Assembly (NCBI GenBank): GCA_947389015.1
Contig: CANDVA010000005.1
Span: 62,001-126,000 of the forward strand
DNA from: an uncultured Clostridia bacterium
Lineage (GTDB): Bacteria; Bacillota; Clostridia; Oscillospirales; Ruminococcaceae
DNA length: 64,000 bases
Direction: 5' to 3'
The position numbers were made by a program, and so were the translations under genes. The notes beneath the pieces are model-generated. The model saw only the letters and a program-made list of their open reading frames with translations, was not told the DNA's origin and ran no database searches. Positions 11,644-19,272 of the stretch are shown one piece after another; the first letter of the stretch is position 1, and each line of letters starts with the position of its first letter.

Positions 11644-11677
11644 GTTTGTCCGCAAACTGTACCATACGAACAGACCA

Positions 11678-11705
11678 CAAAAAAGTCCCGGCGCTTGCCG
11701 GGACT
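11678..11705 (-). terminator. Rho-independent terminator of the small transcript (and of the upstream chemoreceptor mRNA)
   Basis: The stem agtcccgg/ccgggact (11684-11691 with 11698-11705) is followed on the minus strand by a run of six Ts. Confidence 0.85.
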
Positions 11706-11713
11706 AGGGTATT

Positions 11714-11758
11714 TTACTTCTGGGCGGGGAATTCGGCAATGAGGTCAATATGGTTCAT
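11714..11758 (-). CDS. putative 14-residue peptide ORF inside a short LytTR-box-controlled transcript
   Basis: On the minus strand, ATG at 11758-11756 opens a 14-codon frame (MNHIDLIAEFPAQK) ending at TAA 11716-11714. The only candidate Shine-Dalgarno is the G-rich run (gggcgggg) about 10 nt upstream. That run can pair with ccccgccc inside the ORF, so translation would be structure-dependent. The ORF fits entirely between a strong promoter and a strong terminator. It may be a signal or regulatory peptide, or the transcript may be non-coding. No homology is claimed. Confidence 0.3.
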   Translation of the reverse strand: MNHIDLIAEFPAQK

Positions 11759-11788
11759 ACTGGTTCAGCCCCGCCCTTCCGCTCTTTA

Positions 11789-11856
11789 AGTATAGCAAAA
11801 ATCCGTTCAATTTTCAATATTTATCACTTATATGACGGAAAAATCACTTATATGAC
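11789..11856 (-). promoter_or_regulatory. LytTR-like direct-repeat operator and promoter A (small RNA)
   Basis: Read on the minus strand: two copies of GTCATATAAGTGAT (plus coordinates 11843-11856 and 11823-11836, period 20 bp), then 5 bp, then -35 TTGAAA (11812-11817), a 17-bp spacer and -10 TATACT (11789-11794). The box core resembles the AgrA/LytTR box. The same arrangement recurs at 13890-13977 and 18581-18648. Confidence 0.75.
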
Positions 11857-11872
11857 ATAAGCGTACATATTT

Positions 11873-13855
11873 TTACCCGAAGCGGTCGAGATGCTCTTTC
11901 AGCAGCGCTGCCTGACTGTCAAGCTCCTCGCTTGCCGCGGCGGAATTCTGCGCGGCGGAGTCCGTTTTCTCAATGACCGTCTCCACTTCGCCGAGCTTTA
12001 CGGATATCTCCGCGAGCATGGTCTTCTGCTCCTCGGAAACATCCGCTATTTCCGATACCGAGCCGCTTATCGAGTTCGTTTCCGCAACGATACCGCTCAG
12101 CATTTCGGCTGTCAAGTTTGCTGCCGCCGTGCCGCTTTCGATAGCCTTTACGGTGTTCTCGATAAGCTCCGCGGTGATCTTTGACGCGTCGGAGGATTTC
12201 GCTGCGAGATTGCGCACCTCCTCAGCGACAACGGCGAAGCCCTTGCCTGCCTCTCCCGCGCGTGCCGCCTCGATAGACGCGTTGAGCGCGAGTATATTCG
12301 TCTGGAACGCTATGTCCTCGATCGTAGAGTTGATCTTGACTATCTCGTCCGCGGAGCGAGAAATGCTGTCCATGATATTAACAAGCTCCTGCATTTTCTC
12401 GTTGCCCGCGCTTACCGCGTCGGCGGCTTTGAGCGCCTTTTCCTTGACCGAGAACGCGTTTTGCGCGGACTGCGATACTCTGTTGTTGATATCACCGAGA
12501 TTAGCGGAAACCTCGACGATAAGCCTTGTTTCGTCGTTGACGGCGCGCGCAAGCTCTGAAGCTCCTACCGAAACGCTGCGCGAGCCGCCCGATATCTGCT
12601 CCGATACCGTGCTAAGTTCGGCAAACGTAGAAGTCATCGCATTGCAGATATGCTTAATTGACTGCTCCATAGCGGTGAATTCGCCGACAAATTTAACAGA
12701 GCTGTCATACGTGAATTTTCCGTCCGCCATATCCGAGAGTATCCTTTCGATCTCATCAATGTACGATTTAAGTGATATGTTTGTTTGCATAAGCGCGCCG
12801 CAGATAGTGCCGATCTCGTCGTTCGCGGCTTTGGGGTAGCTGTGCTCCAGAACGCCGTTGGACATATTTGTGACGATATTCTCTATCGCCGACAGCGGCT
12901 TTAAGCGCTTCGTAAACTTCAGCCAGAAGAACAGTCCTCCGCCGAATATCGCCGCAAGCGAAACTATCACCGCCAGAATGATTATGTTGTTCAGCCGTGA
13001 CATCGCTTCGTCGTAATCCGCCGCATAAAGTACTTTCCAGCCGGTATCGCCTATCGGAACAACGGGGAAATAGCGCATAGAGCCATCGTAGCCCTTCCCC
13101 GAAACGACGTTTGTGCTTCCCGCTGCCGCGAGAACGTCTTTGTAAATGGGCGCGATATCAACGAGCTTCGTGATCTGTTCGGTCTTGCCGTCGTCAAGAA
13201 GTCTGTGCGAATACTCCTGATTTTCGGCGTGGGCTACTATATTGTCGCTGCCGTCTACAAGTACCGCGTATCCGCCCTCGTCCGCTTTAAGTCCTTGGCA
13301 GACCGAGACCAGCTCGCCGATCTCGATGTCGAGACCGCACACGCCCAACACCTCGTTCTCCGACAAAAGCGGGCTTGCAACGGTGATAACGATCTTTCCC
13401 GTGATCGCGTCTATGTACGGGTCGGTAACGATAGTGGCGCGGGTGCTCTTGGCGCTTTGGTACCAGCCGCGCTCCTGGGCGACGTAATCCTCGGCTACGG
13501 GATAAACGCTGCACACCATTCCCACCGTATCGGTCTCCCACGCGAGATATCCGTTCATAATGCTTGCCGAGGTGGTGTGAACAACGTCAAGCATATGCTT
13601 TTGCAATGCTTCTCCGTGGAATTGCTGTTCCGCTGCTGTCTTGGCAAAGTCTTCCGCAATGGTCGTGTGCTTTGTGAACCATGTGTCCATTTTAGCTGAC
13701 TCCGCCGCGACGGTATGATACAGATCCGATTTTATCGAACTTGTGTATCGGATATTGACGTTCACGGAAAAAATGAGACAGACCGCTATAAGAGCGGCAG
13801 CCAACATTCCCGCTGAGGATAATAAAATGCTTGTGAGCAGACTTTTCCTTTTCAT
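11873..13855 (-). CDS. methyl-accepting chemotaxis protein with extracytoplasmic Cache-type sensor
   Basis: A 660-residue transmembrane chemoreceptor. A short cytoplasmic N-terminus and TM1 (about 9-30) lead to a long extracytoplasmic dCache-like region (about 35-285; motifs [40 protein letters not shown]). TM2 follows (about 292-314), then HAMP and a signalling coiled coil. The kinase-contact tip [34 protein letters not shown] is intact, so it should engage CheA/CheW encoded elsewhere. dCache domains usually bind amino acids, amines, organic acids or sugars. A ggaggaga ribosome site precedes ATG 13855. Transcription is predicted from the repeat-controlled promoter at 13890-13977, tying it to the adjacent two-component system. 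Confidence 0.92.
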
Positions 13856-13889
13856 AGATCATTCTCCTCCATAAAAATTTGTATATATA

Positions 13890-13977
13890 AGTTTAGCAGG
13901 ATTGCCCGCGATTTTCAATATTTATCACTTAATTGACGAATAAATCACTTAATTGACAGACAAATCACTTAATTGAC
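13890..13977 (-). promoter_or_regulatory. LytTR-like triple direct repeat and promoter B (chemoreceptor)
   Basis: Three identical copies of GTCAATTAAGTGAT (minus strand; plus coordinates 13964-13977, 13944-13957, 13924-13937) with an exact 20-bp period end 5 bp before -35 TTGAAA (13913-13918). A 17-bp spacer and -10 TAAACT (13890-13895) follow. The boxes lie between this promoter and the divergent response-regulator promoter at 14018-14046, so binding could affect both. Confidence 0.8.
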
Positions 13978-14017
13978 ATGAGATTTTTCCAAAATATGTA
14001 TATTCATCGACAAATTA

Positions 14018-14046
14018 TTGACTTATTGATCATTTTATGATATAAT
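14018..14046 (+). promoter_or_regulatory. promoter of the LytTR response regulator
   Basis: TTGACT (14018-14023), 17-bp spacer, TATAAT (14041-14046), 23 bp before the TTG start. It faces away from the chemoreceptor promoter, with the three boxes about 40 bp upstream. Confidence 0.8.
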
Positions 14047-14068
14047 TAAAATCAGGGGTGAAGAACGG

Positions 14069-14821
14069 TTGACTAAAATAAAATTTGTCATGTGTGACGA
14101 TAATAGCGACGATCTGGAAACGCTCCGCGCGTCGGCGGACGACTACATAAAACAACGCGGCTTTTGCGGCGAAACGGTATGCCTTTCATCGCCTGAGGAC
14201 GTTCTGCGATATTCCGAGGCGGTCGACGAAAACGAAATTTCAGTGTATCTTCTCGACGTTATAATGCCTGAAACGGACGGCATAGAGTTGGGCAAAAGGA
14301 TACGCGAACACGACAAGAAATCGGCGGTCATTTATATTAGCGTCTCGCGGGAGTATTCGCTTGACGCGTTTTCGGTGCGCGCTTTTTCTTATTTGATCAA
14401 GCCGTTTTCGCGTGAAAAGCTTTTTTCGGAGCTTGACGAGTGCCTCGACCGAATGGAGACCGCGCCGCAAACGCTTTCGATAAAAACCGCCGACGGCACG
14501 GCGCTCCTTGAGTTGTCAAGAATTATAGCGGTGGAGTATCTTGACCACAGACTGATATTTCACCTTCCAAACGGCTCTAAGATCGAAAGCGCGTATCGCA
14601 GACAGCCATTTGACGTTCAGGCGGAGGAGCTTATGCAGACGGGTGCCTTTCTGAAGGTGTCCGCGAGCTATCTGGTAAATTATAAAAATATTCAGGGCGT
14701 GAAATCCGATGAGTTTATTATGCGCGACGGCACTCAATATAAGATCACCCGAAAATACATAGCCGCAAGGCAGCAGTACATAAACGGAGAAATGCTCGGT
14801 CACAAAATGTCAATTAAGTGA
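14069..14821 (+). CDS. LytTR-family response regulator
   Basis: A 250-residue AgrA/VirR-type regulator: receiver domain (about 1-120) and LytTR DNA-binding domain (about 135-240). Receiver residues are visible: acidic pair in VMCDDNSDD, phospho-acceptor Asp63 in YLLDVIMPETDG, Ser91/Ser93 region IYISVS and Lys111 in YLIKPF. The start is TTG 14069, preceded by ggggtg at 14055-14060. The last four codons and stop (MSIK, TGA) are themselves part of the first box of operator C. The gene is followed by its predicted cognate kinase. LytTR proteins bind direct repeats about two helical turns apart, which fits the repeats found around it. Confidence 0.92.
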   Translation: MTKIKFVMCDDNSDDLETLRASADDYIKQRGFCGETVCLSSPEDVLRYSEAVDENEISVYLLDVIMPETDGIELGKRIREHDKKSAVIYISVSREYSLDAFSVRAFSYLIKPFSREKLFSELDECLDRMETAPQTLSIKTADGTALLELSRIIAVEYLDHRLIFHLPNGSKIESAYRRQPFDVQAEELMQTGAFLKVSASYLVNYKNIQGVKSDEFIMRDGTQYKITRKYIAARQQYINGEMLGHKMSIK

Positions 14822-14897
14822 TTTTTCCGTCAAATAAGTGATTTTTTGGTTAAACGGGCAATATCTCTTGAAGTGTTGACCCGTTTTGTATTATAAT
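14809..14897 (+). promoter_or_regulatory. LytTR-like operator C and promoter of the histidine kinase
   Basis: GTCAATTAAGTGAT (14809-14822) overlaps the end of the response-regulator gene. A second box GTCAAATAAGTGAT (14829-14842) follows at a 20-bp period. The best promoter is TTGAAG (14868-14873), an 18-bp spacer and TATAAT (14892-14897). The gap from box to -35 is 25 bp, exactly one repeat period more than at the other three sites. This implies autoregulation of the kinase. Confidence 0.7.
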
Positions 14898-14913
14898 ATG
14901 TAGGGGTGATGTA

Positions 14914-16962
14914 ATGCCATATCTTTTTTCGTATTTTTCCGAGGCGATGTTTTTTGCCTTGTATATATTTGTATGTTTGACGTTTATGAAACCGCGCTTT
15001 CCGCTCGGTATCCGAGTTTTGGTATACGGTGGGGTGCTGCTCCTCTCCTGTGGCGCGGTAACGGTTCTTACGCTGTCGGGAAACGCTATGGCGGCGCTCA
15101 CGCTGCTGCCGCTTATCGCGTATCTTCCGTTTTCCGTTTGCGTATACGTCCTCTCCGAGAGCGGGATATTTGAAGCAACCTCGGCTTGCTCCGTGGGAGC
15201 GCTTTTGACGATAATGCTCAAAATGTTCGACAAAATGCTTATGCTGCTGTTTGGCGTGGTTTTTCACGAAATCAACGGAGTATTGTACGATACTATAATT
15301 CTTGTTATTACAGCCGTTCTTACGGCGGCATTGGGATTTGTGGTGTTTCGGTATATACGCATACCGTTTACGGCATGCGCGGGTTCGGGTCTGAAAAACA
15401 GTCTGCTTATCCTTATCCCGGTAATAACAATGTTTCTGATAATTTTTATCAATTTCAACCGTCCTATCTACATTGGGATGATAATACTGACGCTTATGAC
15501 AGTCGCGTCTTTTTTCGCGATAACCACACGGCTTTTCGTATATTACGCGAAAATTATCGAGGCGACGGAGAACGAAAAAAAACTTATTGATAGTCTGGCG
15601 CTTCAGCGTCAAAATTTTGAGCGCATTTCCCGGAGCGTGGACGCGGGGCGGCTTTACCGTCACGATATGCGTCATCATCTGAAGGTATTGGCGGGAATGG
15701 CACAGCGGGACAACGCCGCCGAAATTCTGGAATATATAGGGGAACTAAACAGCTCTGTTGGGGACTGCACTCCCGAAATGTTCTGCAGAAACCCCGCGGT
15801 AAACGCAGTGCTGTCGCAATACATAAGCCGCGCGGAAAATATCGGCTGCCGGATTGAGCATAAAGTCTTCATTCCCGAAGAGCTTCCGTTTGAGCTGCCC
15901 GACGTGTGCATAATTCTGTCAAACGCGCTTGAAAACGCGCTGAACGCCTGCGAAAAGTGCACCGAGGACAAGCGTTATATTGATTTGCAGGCTGATTTTT
16001 CGGATGACCGCAAGCTGAAAATATCCGTAAGAAACCCCTGCTCCGATATCGTAGAGCTTGGCGCGGATGGACTGCCTGTTGTCGCTAAGCGCACAGACGG
16101 TCACGGGATCGGACTTCGGGGCGTGAAAAAAACGGTTGAGAAATACAACGGCTTTATCTGCTGCGCGTATGAAAACGGAGTATTTCTGTTCTGCGCCGAG
16201 ATATTCCGCGACCCGAACGGCGGCTTGCCAAATTACGGTAAAGCCGAACGCGTTCCCAAGCATTCAAAGGCGCTTCCTGCGGTTCTGGCGTCGATCGTCT
16301 GTGCAATAGGCGTGCTGAATTTTTCTCCGGCAGCTGCAAGCGCGCTGTCCGAAACGCTCTCCGTCGATATCAAGACGATAAGCTACGGTTGGGGTGACAA
16401 CGACCTGAGCATACGATATCCCGAGTTTGTCGGAGATAATTCCGATAAGCTGAATCAGGCGGCAAAGGATTTTATTTCCGAGGCGCAGAATACTTTTATG
16501 CAATACGCTCTTAAAAAATACGAGGGCTACGTCGCGGAGGACGCGGGCTACCGTATCCATATGAACAACAGAGATTATCTGTCGGCGAGGTTTTACGCGA
16601 CGATAAATTTAGGCGGCTCTATGGAATACAGCCGCTGCGTGACTATTGACAAGAAAAGCGGCAAGGTACTGGCGCTGGCCGACCTGTTCGATGAAAATTA
16701 CGATTACATAGGCGAGATAAGCGCGGAGATATTACGTAAAATGGAATACCGCGTGGAAAACGAGGGAGCGAATTATTTCATTCCCGGAGGCATCTGGAGG
16801 GACGACGAGTGTTTTAAGGAGATATCTCCGGATCAGGAGTTCTACTTGACGTCGGATGGGCTGTTGGTTATTGTTTTTGACGAATACACCGTAGCTCCCG
16901 GCACGGAGGGCTCTCCCGAATTTTTTATGCCATATGATATCTTCTTTTATGAAGCGCATTAA
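14914..16962 (+). CDS. AgrC-like sensor histidine kinase with C-terminal RsiV/DUF3298-like extracytoplasmic domain
   Basis: A 682-residue protein. Residues 1-212 hold six or seven membrane segments. Residues about 220-432 form the kinase: predicted phospho-acceptor His250 in YRHDMRHHLKVL, N-box LSNALENALNAC, G-box DGHGIGLRGV (GHKL type of LytTR partners). Unusually the chain continues. A further membrane segment (about 454-475, LPAVLASIVCAIGVLNF) is followed by about 205 residues resembling DUF4163/DUF3298 (PdaC/RsiV family): IRYPEFVGDNSDKLNQ, SGKVLALADLFDE, DQEFYLTSDGLLVIVFDEYTVAPGTEGSPEF. In RsiV this fold binds lysozyme. That a similar ligand is sensed here is inference. No stop or frameshift separates the parts. 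Confidence 0.85.
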   Translation: MPYLFSYFSEAMFFALYIFVCLTFMKPRFPLGIRVLVYGGVLLLSCGAVTVLTLSGNAMAALTLLPLIAYLPFSVCVYVLSESGIFEATSACSVGALLTIMLKMFDKMLMLLFGVVFHEINGVLYDTIILVITAVLTAALGFVVFRYIRIPFTACAGSGLKNSLLILIPVITMFLIIFINFNRPIYIGMIILTLMTVASFFAITTRLFVYYAKIIEATENEKKLIDSLALQRQNFERISRSVDAGRLYRHDMRHHLKVLAGMAQRDNAAEILEYIGELNSSVGDCTPEMFCRNPAVNAVLSQYISRAENIGCRIEHKVFIPEELPFELPDVCIILSNALENALNACEKCTEDKRYIDLQADFSDDRKLKISVRNPCSDIVELGADGLPVVAKRTDGHGIGLRGVKKTVEKYNGFICCAYENGVFLFCAEIFRDPNGGLPNYGKAERVPKHSKALPAVLASIVCAIGVLNFSPAAASALSETLSVDIKTISYGWGDNDLSIRYPEFVGDNSDKLNQAAKDFISEAQNTFMQYALKKYEGYVAEDAGYRIHMNNRDYLSARFYATINLGGSMEYSRCVTIDKKSGKVLALADLFDENYDYIGEISAEILRKMEYRVENEGANYFIPGGIWRDDECFKEISPDQEFYLTSDGLLVIVFDEYTVAPGTEGSPEFFMPYDIFFYEAH

Positions 16963-16975
16963 CACTTATAATGGC

Positions 16976-17012
16976 AAATATCCGAGAGCGGCTGCCCTCG
17001 GATATTTTTTTA
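16976..17012 (+). terminator. terminator after the histidine kinase
   Basis: The stem atatccgag/ctcggatat (around 16978-17005) with a 10-nt loop is followed by seven Ts. It separates the kinase from the convergent chemoreceptor gene, which ends at 17036. Confidence 0.85.
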
Positions 17013-17035
17013 TCTTTATTATGCACTGTACACCT

Positions 17036-18529
17036 CTATTTAGCGAGCGTATCAAGCTGCTCGGACATTTCGCGTATATCCTTTACCATTGCGCTGAGCG
17101 TCTCCATGCTCTCGCTGCTTTTGCGTATCGTATCCGAGACCGTTGACACGGCAACGTAGTTGTTTACTATATTTTCGCTTACTCCCGTAAGCTTGTTTGT
17201 TACCTCGTCGCCGCTTTTCGCGACGCTTGAGATAACCTCCGCGATATGCCCGATGTTTTGAGATATTTCGCTGTTCGAGCTGCTCAGCTTCTCTGCCGAT
17301 GATTTTATCAGCTCCATGTTCTCCATTCCCTCGCGCGTGAGCGTATAATTCTGCTCCATCACCGAGACTGCGGACGTTATGTTTTGAGTGAACATTTTGA
17401 TAATACCGCCGATCTCCTGCGCGGAGCTTTTGGTCTGCGCGGAAAGTGTGCCTATCTCCTCAGAAACTATTGAAAATCCCTTTCCCGCCTCGCCCGCGTG
17501 AGCCGCCTCTATTGACGCGTTTATCGCGAGAATATCCGTTTGCCGCGAAATGTCCTCGATCATCTTGACGATCTCGGAAATGCGCTTGGACTGCTCGGAA
17601 AGCTCCGCGATTATCTTCATACTGTCGTCGGTGTGGGTGTATATCTGTTTCATGCCGTTTTCGGCAACGGAAAGCGAGGAATTGTTTTCGGCGGTGATCT
17701 CGTCGGAATGCTTGAGAAGCTGCTCGATCTCGCGGCTCATATTGTCAAGATTGCGCAGATTTTCCGAGATCGTATTCATATTCTCGCCGACGGAACGGAT
17801 ATGCTCGGAATTCTCCTCGCTGTCGCGCATGATCTTTTCAGACTGAGCTGCCATCGTCCTGCCAGACTCCGCGGATTGCGCCGAAATATCGTCCATTTCC
17901 TTGACCGCTCGGACAAGGGTCTGCGATATCTCCGCCGATTTTTCGCGTATCTGCTCCTGCTGTTCGGCGCTCATCAGATTTCCGAGCAGCGAGGCGGTGC
18001 GCTTGCAGAGCATTGTGAATATCATCGAAATAGCGAATAGTATCATAGCTCTCGGAAGTATTCCGAACAGCGTGACACCCTTGAAATCCGTAAAGTTTGC
18101 GTCCCGGTCGCAAGGAATATAAAGCGATATAAGCTGCGCCGCCGACACGGTGATTATCGTAAAAACCGTCGAGAAAATATTCAGCTTTCCCGAAAAATAA
18201 AGGCTCGATATCGCTATCGGGTATACGTAAAGCAGTACCGAATGTTTAGGCAGTATCACCGACAATATTCCCGTAAAGATGACCGCACAGGTAACGCATA
18301 CGTACTTTGTATATCCCTCGCCGCTTTTCTTCATCACGTTCGCGATCAGCGTCGGTACGGCGAGCATTACCGTACCCGATATGTACGCGATTATCATCTG
18401 TGTCATATCCACGATAAAAATGCCCGCGATATTCAGAATGAATACTATGGTAAGCACGATAATGCTTATACGCATTACCTTTGCAACAGCCAGATTTGCG
18501 CTTGTTTCATTTTCCTTCAGCAGTTTCAT
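17036..18529 (-). CDS. methyl-accepting chemotaxis protein with multi-helix membrane N-terminus
   Basis: A 497-residue chemoreceptor-like protein. Residues about 18-180 contain five or six membrane helices without a large extracytoplasmic sensor, so it may sense within the membrane or respond to energy state. The rest is a methyl-accepting signalling coiled coil with tip [34 protein letters not shown]. The tip differs from the first receptor by having His in EAAHAG and [17 protein letters not shown] is not obvious. aaggag upstream of ATG 18529 is the ribosome site. It is controlled by promoter D with the same boxes as the first chemoreceptor. Confidence 0.9.
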
Positions 18530-18580
18530 CGGTTTTGGTTCTCCTTTTGAAATTGTTTTAACGATTATATATTTTATAGT

Positions 18581-18648
18581 AGTATATCAAAATCACGCTT
18601 CTTTTTCAATAAGTATCACTTAATTGACAAAAAAATCACTTAATTTAC
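18581..18648 (-). promoter_or_regulatory. LytTR-like operator and promoter D (second chemoreceptor)
   Basis: Minus strand: GTAAATTAAGTGAT (18635-18648, one mismatch) and GTCAATTAAGTGAT (18615-18628), period 20 bp, then 5 bp, -35 TTGAAA (18604-18609), a 17-bp spacer and -10 TATACT (18581-18586). Geometry is identical to sites A and B. Confidence 0.8.
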
Positions 18649-18666: not shown

Positions 18667-18695
18667 TTGACAGTATTTCTGAAATATGCTATAAT
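18667..18695 (+). promoter_or_regulatory. consensus promoter of the XRE/cupin regulator operon
   Basis: TTGACA (18667-18672), 17-bp spacer, TATAAT (18690-18695). It is divergent from promoter D; the nearest box ends only 18 bp upstream of this -35. Confidence 0.85.
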
Positions 18696-18729
18696 ATACA
18701 AAAGTCTATCTTAACATATAAGGGGGGTA

Positions 18730-19272
18730 ATGAAAATGCAGAGCCTTACAGTCGGCAGGGAACTGAAAAGCATACGTCAGTCACGCGGTCTGACCTTAGA
18801 CGAGCTTGCCGAGATGACGGGAGTAAGCAAGCCGATGCTCGGACAGATCGAGCGTGGGCAGTCCTCTCCGACGATCAACACGCTGTGGAAGATCGCGACC
18901 GGCTTAAAAGCGCCGCTGTCGTCGCTGCTGCGCGAACGCGGGGGCGAATTTGTAACGGTGAGCCCTTCGGATATGATCTCGGAGGAGAACGGGTCAATGC
19001 GTGCATACGCGCTGTTTCCGTTTGATCCGATACGCAGCTTTGAAGCGTTCGTTATCGAGTTTGACGCGGGGTGTGTTCACCGCTCGGACGCTCACGCGGA
19101 AAACGTCGAGGAAACGGTTTTCGTGATACGCGGAAGGCTCGACGTCACTGCGAACGGGCATAAGGAAACGCTTTCGGAAGGACAGGCTGCGCGTTTTCGC
19201 GCGGATATCCCGCACGTCTACGCAAATCCTTACGGCGAGCCGTGCCGTATATACAATACGATTTTTTATTGA
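18730..19272 (+). CDS. XRE-family transcriptional regulator with cupin domain
   Basis: A 180-residue regulator: HTH_3 domain at residues about 8-62 (LKSIRQSRGLTLDELAEMTGVSKPMLGQIERGQSSPTI) and a C-terminal cupin at about 105-178 (HRSDAHAENVEETVFVIRGRLDVTANG, ending DIPHVYANPYGEPCRIYNTIFY). Such proteins often control small metabolic operons, with a ligand bound in the cupin barrel. A strong aagggggg site precedes ATG 18730. It forms an operon with the MBL-fold gene 10 bp downstream, which is a plausible target and source of its ligand. Confidence 0.9.
   Translation: MKMQSLTVGRELKSIRQSRGLTLDELAEMTGVSKPMLGQIERGQSSPTINTLWKIATGLKAPLSSLLRERGGEFVTVSPSDMISEENGSMRAYALFPFDPIRSFEAFVIEFDAGCVHRSDAHAENVEETVFVIRGRLDVTANGHKETLSEGQAARFRADIPHVYANPYGEPCRIYNTIFY

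Follow-up and report, generated by a model that had tools for sequence, protein, structure and literature searches.

The binding repeats of published LytTR regulators lie 11–13 base pairs (bp) apart and, in Streptococcus mutans, 4–11 bp before the −35 element of the promoter (PMC6193735; here and below, statements on cited papers refer to the accessible portions of their text). A separate sensory principle is represented by RsiV, which binds lysozyme and is then cleaved by signal peptidase, its homologues keeping an AxA motif after the membrane segment (PMC4183432); of three RsiV residues that have been studied, S169, P259 and Y261, the first has the largest effect (PMC5014341). Elements of both kinds meet in a 64,000-nucleotide stretch from an uncultured Clostridia bacterium of the Ruminococcaceae (contig CANDVA010000005.1, positions 62,001 to 126,000), henceforth the window, in which a two-component system composed of a LytTR response regulator and a GHKL histidine kinase with an RsiV-like domain lies among tandem 14-bp boxes that precede chemoreceptor genes and a small RNA (sRNA). 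This is a real LytTR regulon, and what is new in it is the sensor and the chemotaxis output. It appears that the two-component system puts in place a block of chemoreceptors and, with them, surface proteins; very probably, the entire set is switched as one by the sensor-regulator pair encoded among the boxes.

In a literature search that covered titles and abstract openings, and few subscription journals, we found no LytTR or AgrA-type regulator described on chemoreceptor promoters; the accessible portions of PMC7586716, PMC10301443 and PMC8396549 likewise describe no LytTR control of such promoters. The view of an earlier note on this DNA, that local switching of chemoreceptors by a LytTR system is undescribed, is in keeping with the search, the absence of a report being no proof. 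With the same limited coverage of subscription journals, nothing was found joining DUF3298, lysozyme and a histidine kinase, nor GHKL, RsiV and a two-component system.

Tandem boxes and their phasing to promoters

A pattern scan of the window recovered nine boxes with an exact 20-bp period, spread over four promoters (Table 1), each at the position that the earlier note had given; the tandem pattern produced five matches, whereas 100 shuffled versions of the window averaged 0.00. Counts of single boxes with up to three mismatches (10 in the window versus 4.56 expected) are close to chance and constitute weak evidence, and were dropped. At the sites beginning at 11823, 13924 and 18615, TTGAAA starts 5 bp past the last box and is followed by 17 bp to the −10 element, which bears out the spacing proposed for these three promoters; at the kinase promoter, TTGAAG starts 25 bp past the last box. 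The proposed closeness of the box core to the AgrA box amounts to some likeness, with just 7 of 9 bases matching.

Table 1. Features of the box regulon, with positions in the window
Feature	Position	Strand	Remarks
Small RNA	11677..11788	-	long hairpin and intrinsic terminator (stem 11705-11684)
Box pair before small RNA	11823 and 11843; span 11823..11856	-	-35 TTGAAA 11817-11812; -10 ends 11789
Chemoreceptor 1	11873..13855	-	dCache_1 and MCPsignal
Box triplet before chemoreceptor 1	13924, 13944, 13964; span 13924..13977	-	-35 TTGAAA 13918-13913
Predicted promoter of regulator gene	14018..14046	+	promoter prediction; divergent from the three boxes
Response regulator	14069..14821	+	receiver and LytTR; LytTR 24.5 bits, cut-off 22.6
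Box pair before kinase	14809 and 14829; span 14809..14842	+	overlaps end of regulator gene; best -35 TTGAAG at 14868
GHKL histidine kinase	14914..16962	+	C-terminal transmembrane segment and RsiV-like domain (from about residue 449)
Chemoreceptor 2	17036..18529	-	MCPsignal
Box pair before chemoreceptor 2	18615 and 18635; span 18615..18648	-	-35 TTGAAA 18609-18604
Third chemoreceptor	L013/L016		dCache domain; outside window
Two repeat-rich proteins	L011/L015, L014/L017		signal-peptide-like starts; outside window

Extending the tandem scan to the whole genome (G000; 2.91 megabases in 49 contigs, 96% complete) yielded eight matches, which correspond to seven promoters, and none for the reversed-pattern control. 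A search for exact pairs of the form TAAGTGAT-N(0-30)-TAAGTGAT recovered seven, every one with a gap of 12, equivalent to the 20-bp period. The four-site regulon of the earlier note therefore stands for the window and is too narrow for the genome, where three further promoters precede the third chemoreceptor and two secreted repeat proteins. Dispersal over hundreds of unrelated loci, which the same note had named as the contrary outcome, was looked for genome-wide, and these eight pairs at seven promoters are all that was found. A looser scan for one box plus a −35 gave nine matches, comprising six of the seven promoters and three single boxes elsewhere (C30:18597, C38:12946 and C43:935), each with one mismatch and correctly spaced from a −35; these are possible extra targets, and thus the regulon may be larger.

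Using a matrix scan, we assembled 28 promoters from the window genome (seven) and eight other genomes of the genus (G014, seven; G020, G038 and G039, three each; G041, two; G027, G030 and G032, one each). Before counting, we removed low-scoring reads of these sites on the opposite strand, a single weak pair (L017 -2429, scores 7.0/8.0) and, at both three-box sites, the second register (window 13944 and L089 6697). The −35 begins exactly 5 bp past the last box in 24 of the 28, compared to 4.9% with shuffled downstream sequence, the remaining distances being 4 bp (G014 kinase), 6 bp (G027), 17 bp (G032) and 25 bp (window kinase); moreover, all 28 box pairs share one orientation relative to their promoter. 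As 4 bp separate the boxes of the G014 kinase from the same TTGAAG, the kinase promoter of the window looks displaced by about one repeat period. Measured on TCAATTAAG, the repeats are 11 bp apart and 9 bp before the −35 at the same 24 promoters, within the published LytTR ranges. The rule of a 20-bp period and 5 bp to the −35 is clean enough for targets to be read from genomes.

The LytTR regulator and its co-occurrence with the box

The regulator gene is indeed situated amid the boxes, and its product combines a receiver with a LytTR domain scoring over the cut-off; for its structural model (predicted local distance difference test, pLDDT, 65) the nearest match is ComE, with the LytTR domain of AgrA among the best. 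Of 43 genomes of the genus, 8 encode an orthologue with at least 60% identity and 8 have the tandem box, which was found in none of 57 other relatives in the same search. Seven genomes have both (p = 1.9e-6 over the 43, such p-values being optimistic because related genomes are not independent). The lowest-identity orthologue (60%, in G027) is paired with a diverged tandem, which is placed before a CheY-like gene. In G030, whose assembly is 77% complete, the box adjoins a sister LytTR (39% identity), the sole relative of the clade found there.

Among 292 further genomes of the family, a credible box was recovered only from G316, a member of another genus, with two sites (2 and 3 mismatches) that lie 5 bp from the −35 when read by eye, outside the 28-promoter scan. 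G121 and G341 gave one 3-mismatch match each, which we judged to be chance because the reversed control likewise yielded two matches (G237 and G361) in the same search. A search for the sister LytTR in this family sample, in which at most nine candidates were scored per genome, identified one at 75% identity in G316 and a decayed copy at 84% in the window genome, the rest being at or below 39% among the matches listed. When 335 genomes are pooled, the box is present in 9 of the 10 clade genomes (those with such a LytTR among the matches listed) and in none of the 325 others, two of which have single 3-mismatch matches. In G316, boxes that drive a chemoreceptor adjoin the divergent sister LytTR gene, and another box pair drives a 77% orthologue of chemoreceptor 2. 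Together, the co-occurrence of clade and box over the 335 genomes, the arrangement in G316 and the promoter geometry support the proposal that the LytTR regulator owns the boxes, with a wider set than had been described.

A histidine in the LytTR loop contacts DNA, as in AgrA, and is typical of the domain, though not strictly defining. The loop reads SAS in all nine clade members and has the histidine in four of the five other LytTRs of the window genome. At the C7 site of this genome (L015 5300-6600) there is a decayed sister system, whose regulator frame is interrupted by a stop and a frame change and whose kinase is truncated; as the boxes beside it are intact, the boxes of this genome are more likely to be bound by the regulator of the window.

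Target genes, small RNA and kinase

We tallied by hand the targets of 30 promoters, namely the above 28 and the two of G316, with Pfam run on part of the products. Fifteen lead into a chemoreceptor gene and one into a GAF-GGDEF gene with chemoreceptor 1 behind it; four drive the sRNA (followed in one case by a CheY-like gene), one a CheY-like gene, five a secreted repeat protein (the reading frame in G039 being ambiguous) and two the kinase, while one is without a clear target and one is at a contig end. Orthologues of the three chemoreceptors of the window genome show 74–90% identity. The sensor domain of chemoreceptor 1 has PctA, PctB and PctC as its nearest solved structures; by analogy, one might guess that it senses amino acids. 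In G039 (L089 5579-6601), the GAF-GGDEF gene comes after a three-box promoter and before chemoreceptor 1, a placement that suggests a link to cyclic di-GMP. Flagellin-type matches are found in 38 of the 43 genomes of the genus, with a strong one in the window genome (1.1e-43) and weak ones only in G027, G032, G038 and G039.

With respect to the secreted repeat proteins, L015 has no Pfam match and those of L017 were disregarded, none of its stretches passing alone; NCBIfam gave no match for either. The leaders of four box-driven surface-protein genes (L015 6731-6920, L017 5746-5920, L079 9790-9960 and L090 4616-4775) have a mean identity of 64% in alignment; common to them, upstream of the start codon, are a GC-rich segment, one resembling TATATTAGG and a terminator-like hairpin; they are possibly an attenuator or a new riboswitch. 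No known RNA family in Rfam matched the leaders at L011 and L014 over threshold.

The sRNA extends from 11788 to about 11677 on the minus strand, behind its box promoter, has a predicted length of about 110 nt and folds with a z-score of −2.65. Two related copies are found in G014 and one in G020, all four being directly behind boxes, and 6 of 19 consensus pairs show compensatory changes, both partners differing in one or more of the four sequences. A model built from these four recovers them at 1.5e-18 or better across the 43 genomes; no further strong copy was detected there, the other three matches being at 0.01 to 0.06. A plain DNA search recovers one of the three related copies. No Rfam 15 family passes its gathering threshold anywhere in the window, the sub-threshold scores at the sRNA being 22.1 of 37 bits on the other strand and 18.1 of 60 on the same strand. 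A 14-codon open reading frame within it, considered as a signal peptide, was set aside as not conserved in the three related copies.

Residues 449-676 of the kinase match positions 35-275 of the 286 in the NCBIfam RsiV model (E 1.6e-37; 129.5 bits, below the equivalog cut-off of 250), and the C-terminus matches the RsiV structure 5jen (E 3.5e-19). Kinases with an RsiV-like extracellular domain and AxA are encoded in the window and in G014, G027, G038, G039 and G041, and in all six AxA-LS follows the hydrophobic segment (450-479), the extracellular domain comprising about residues 484-682. Among the lysozyme-binding residues of RsiV, S169 is retained in six of six, P259 in four and Y261 in none, and with this partial retention lysozyme is a candidate ligand; the structural model of the domain has a pLDDT of 46. 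In G020, G030 and G032, a shorter GHKL kinase devoid of the RsiV-like domain is found behind the regulator. Set beside window 14069-16962, the loci L082 5623-7673 and L086 1538-3600 have a constant regulator and a different downstream kinase, and the sensor appears, from these sequences, to have been exchanged while regulator and boxes stayed. Tentatively, and as something we think possible rather than probable, the kinase might be a fusion of RsiV with a histidine kinase, such that a lysozyme-like or cell-wall signal captured by its extracellular domain, perhaps with cleavage by signal peptidase at the conserved AxA, would drive the LytTR regulator to re-equip the cell with chemoreceptors, surface proteins and the sRNA, and contact with a host would rewire the targets of swimming and sticking. 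The fusion provides a testable link from a host-derived or cell-wall signal to chemotactic behaviour.

Regulatory model, alternatives and known systems

We assign a probability of roughly 0.83 to the reading that the boxes serve as operator for the LytTR regulator and that the latter, signalled by the kinase, activates the chemoreceptors, surface proteins and sRNA. The partner kinase would sense an extracellular signal, probably via its RsiV-like domain, and phosphorylate the regulator, whose dimers would then bind a pair, sometimes a triplet, of direct repeats spaced by two helical turns. The bound regulator would attract RNA polymerase to promoters of the sigma-70 type in which the −35 starts 5 bp further downstream, switching on several chemoreceptors, secreted surface proteins and the sRNA, along with the kinase gene in two genomes and a CheY or GGDEF protein in some relatives. 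Activation is inferred because the placement of the boxes matches that at published LytTR promoters. Several points weigh against this reading: the near-palindromic box (10 of 14 positions) is unusual among LytTR sites; the LytTR domain is barely above its cut-off (24.5 versus 22.6 bits); SAS replaces the usual histidine of the loop; the 77% complete assembly of G030 has the box with the 39% sister LytTR alone found; and the −35 is 17 bp away in G032 and 25 bp away at the window's kinase. Binding and expression are, furthermore, predicted from sequence only, and the kinship of the genomes makes the p-values optimistic.

The near-palindrome would also suit a dimer of some other DNA-binding protein, for instance the XRE-cupin regulator (18730-19272), whose gene is adjacent to the last box pair and has a strong promoter at 18667. 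However, its relatives (E 1e-20) are found in 5 of the 43 genomes, six of the eight box genomes are without one, and G029, itself without a box, carries a 91% orthologue; the uniform orientation of the 28 box pairs also speaks against such a binder. We rejected this regulator, the one other that was compared, because its gene does not follow the box over the 43 genomes, and we regard ownership of the boxes by a different protein as improbable. We likewise see little prospect for the alternative in which the LytTR regulator acts at the boxes as a repressor, with the signal turning the genes off or lifting repression. In its favour, the boxes end just 5 bp from the −35; against it, a site just upstream of the −35 together with weak TTGAAA elements fits activation, as at published LytTR promoters. 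Finally, some copies of the box are identical, as expected of duplicates, but a chance or dispersed repeat of no regulatory meaning is rejected by the count of only seven loci in the genome, by shuffles with an expectation of 0 and a reversed control of 0, and by the fixed phasing to promoters of unlike genes; we deem it next to impossible.

As a separate observation, the XRE-cupin gene (window 18667-19272) has a promoter agreeing with the consensus at 12 of 12 positions; it begins 19 bp past the divergent box pair and might come under the same control as that pair's own promoter.

Read as an activating LytTR regulon, the locus resembles AlgZR of Pseudomonas aeruginosa in being a LytTR two-component system tied to motility, there through type IV pili; the accessible text of PMC4064291 names the pili and leaves chemoreceptors unmentioned. 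With the LytTR Regulatory Systems (HdrRM, BrsRM) it shares repeats 11–13 bp apart and 4–11 bp upstream of the −35, as well as autoregulation (PMC6193735); however, those consist of a LytTR protein without a receiver and a membrane inhibitor, whereas a receiver domain and a kinase are present here. RsiV of the RsiV-SigV lysozyme-sensing system of Bacillus subtilis has its counterpart in the kinase C-terminus, with its transmembrane segment, AxA and DUF4163/DUF3298 region (PMC4183432, PMC5014341), but here the cytoplasmic part is a kinase instead of an anti-sigma domain, Y261 is lost and lysozyme is a candidate for binding. The regulons of the AgrA/ComE/BtsR type share the receiver plus LytTR architecture, the adjacent GHKL kinase and the tandem repeats just upstream of the −35 (PMC6193735, PMC4064291). 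In contrast to these, the repeats described here are 11 bp apart where most published ones are 12, the loop has SAS in place of the histidine, the kinase bears an RsiV-like domain, and the targets are mainly chemoreceptors and surface proteins.

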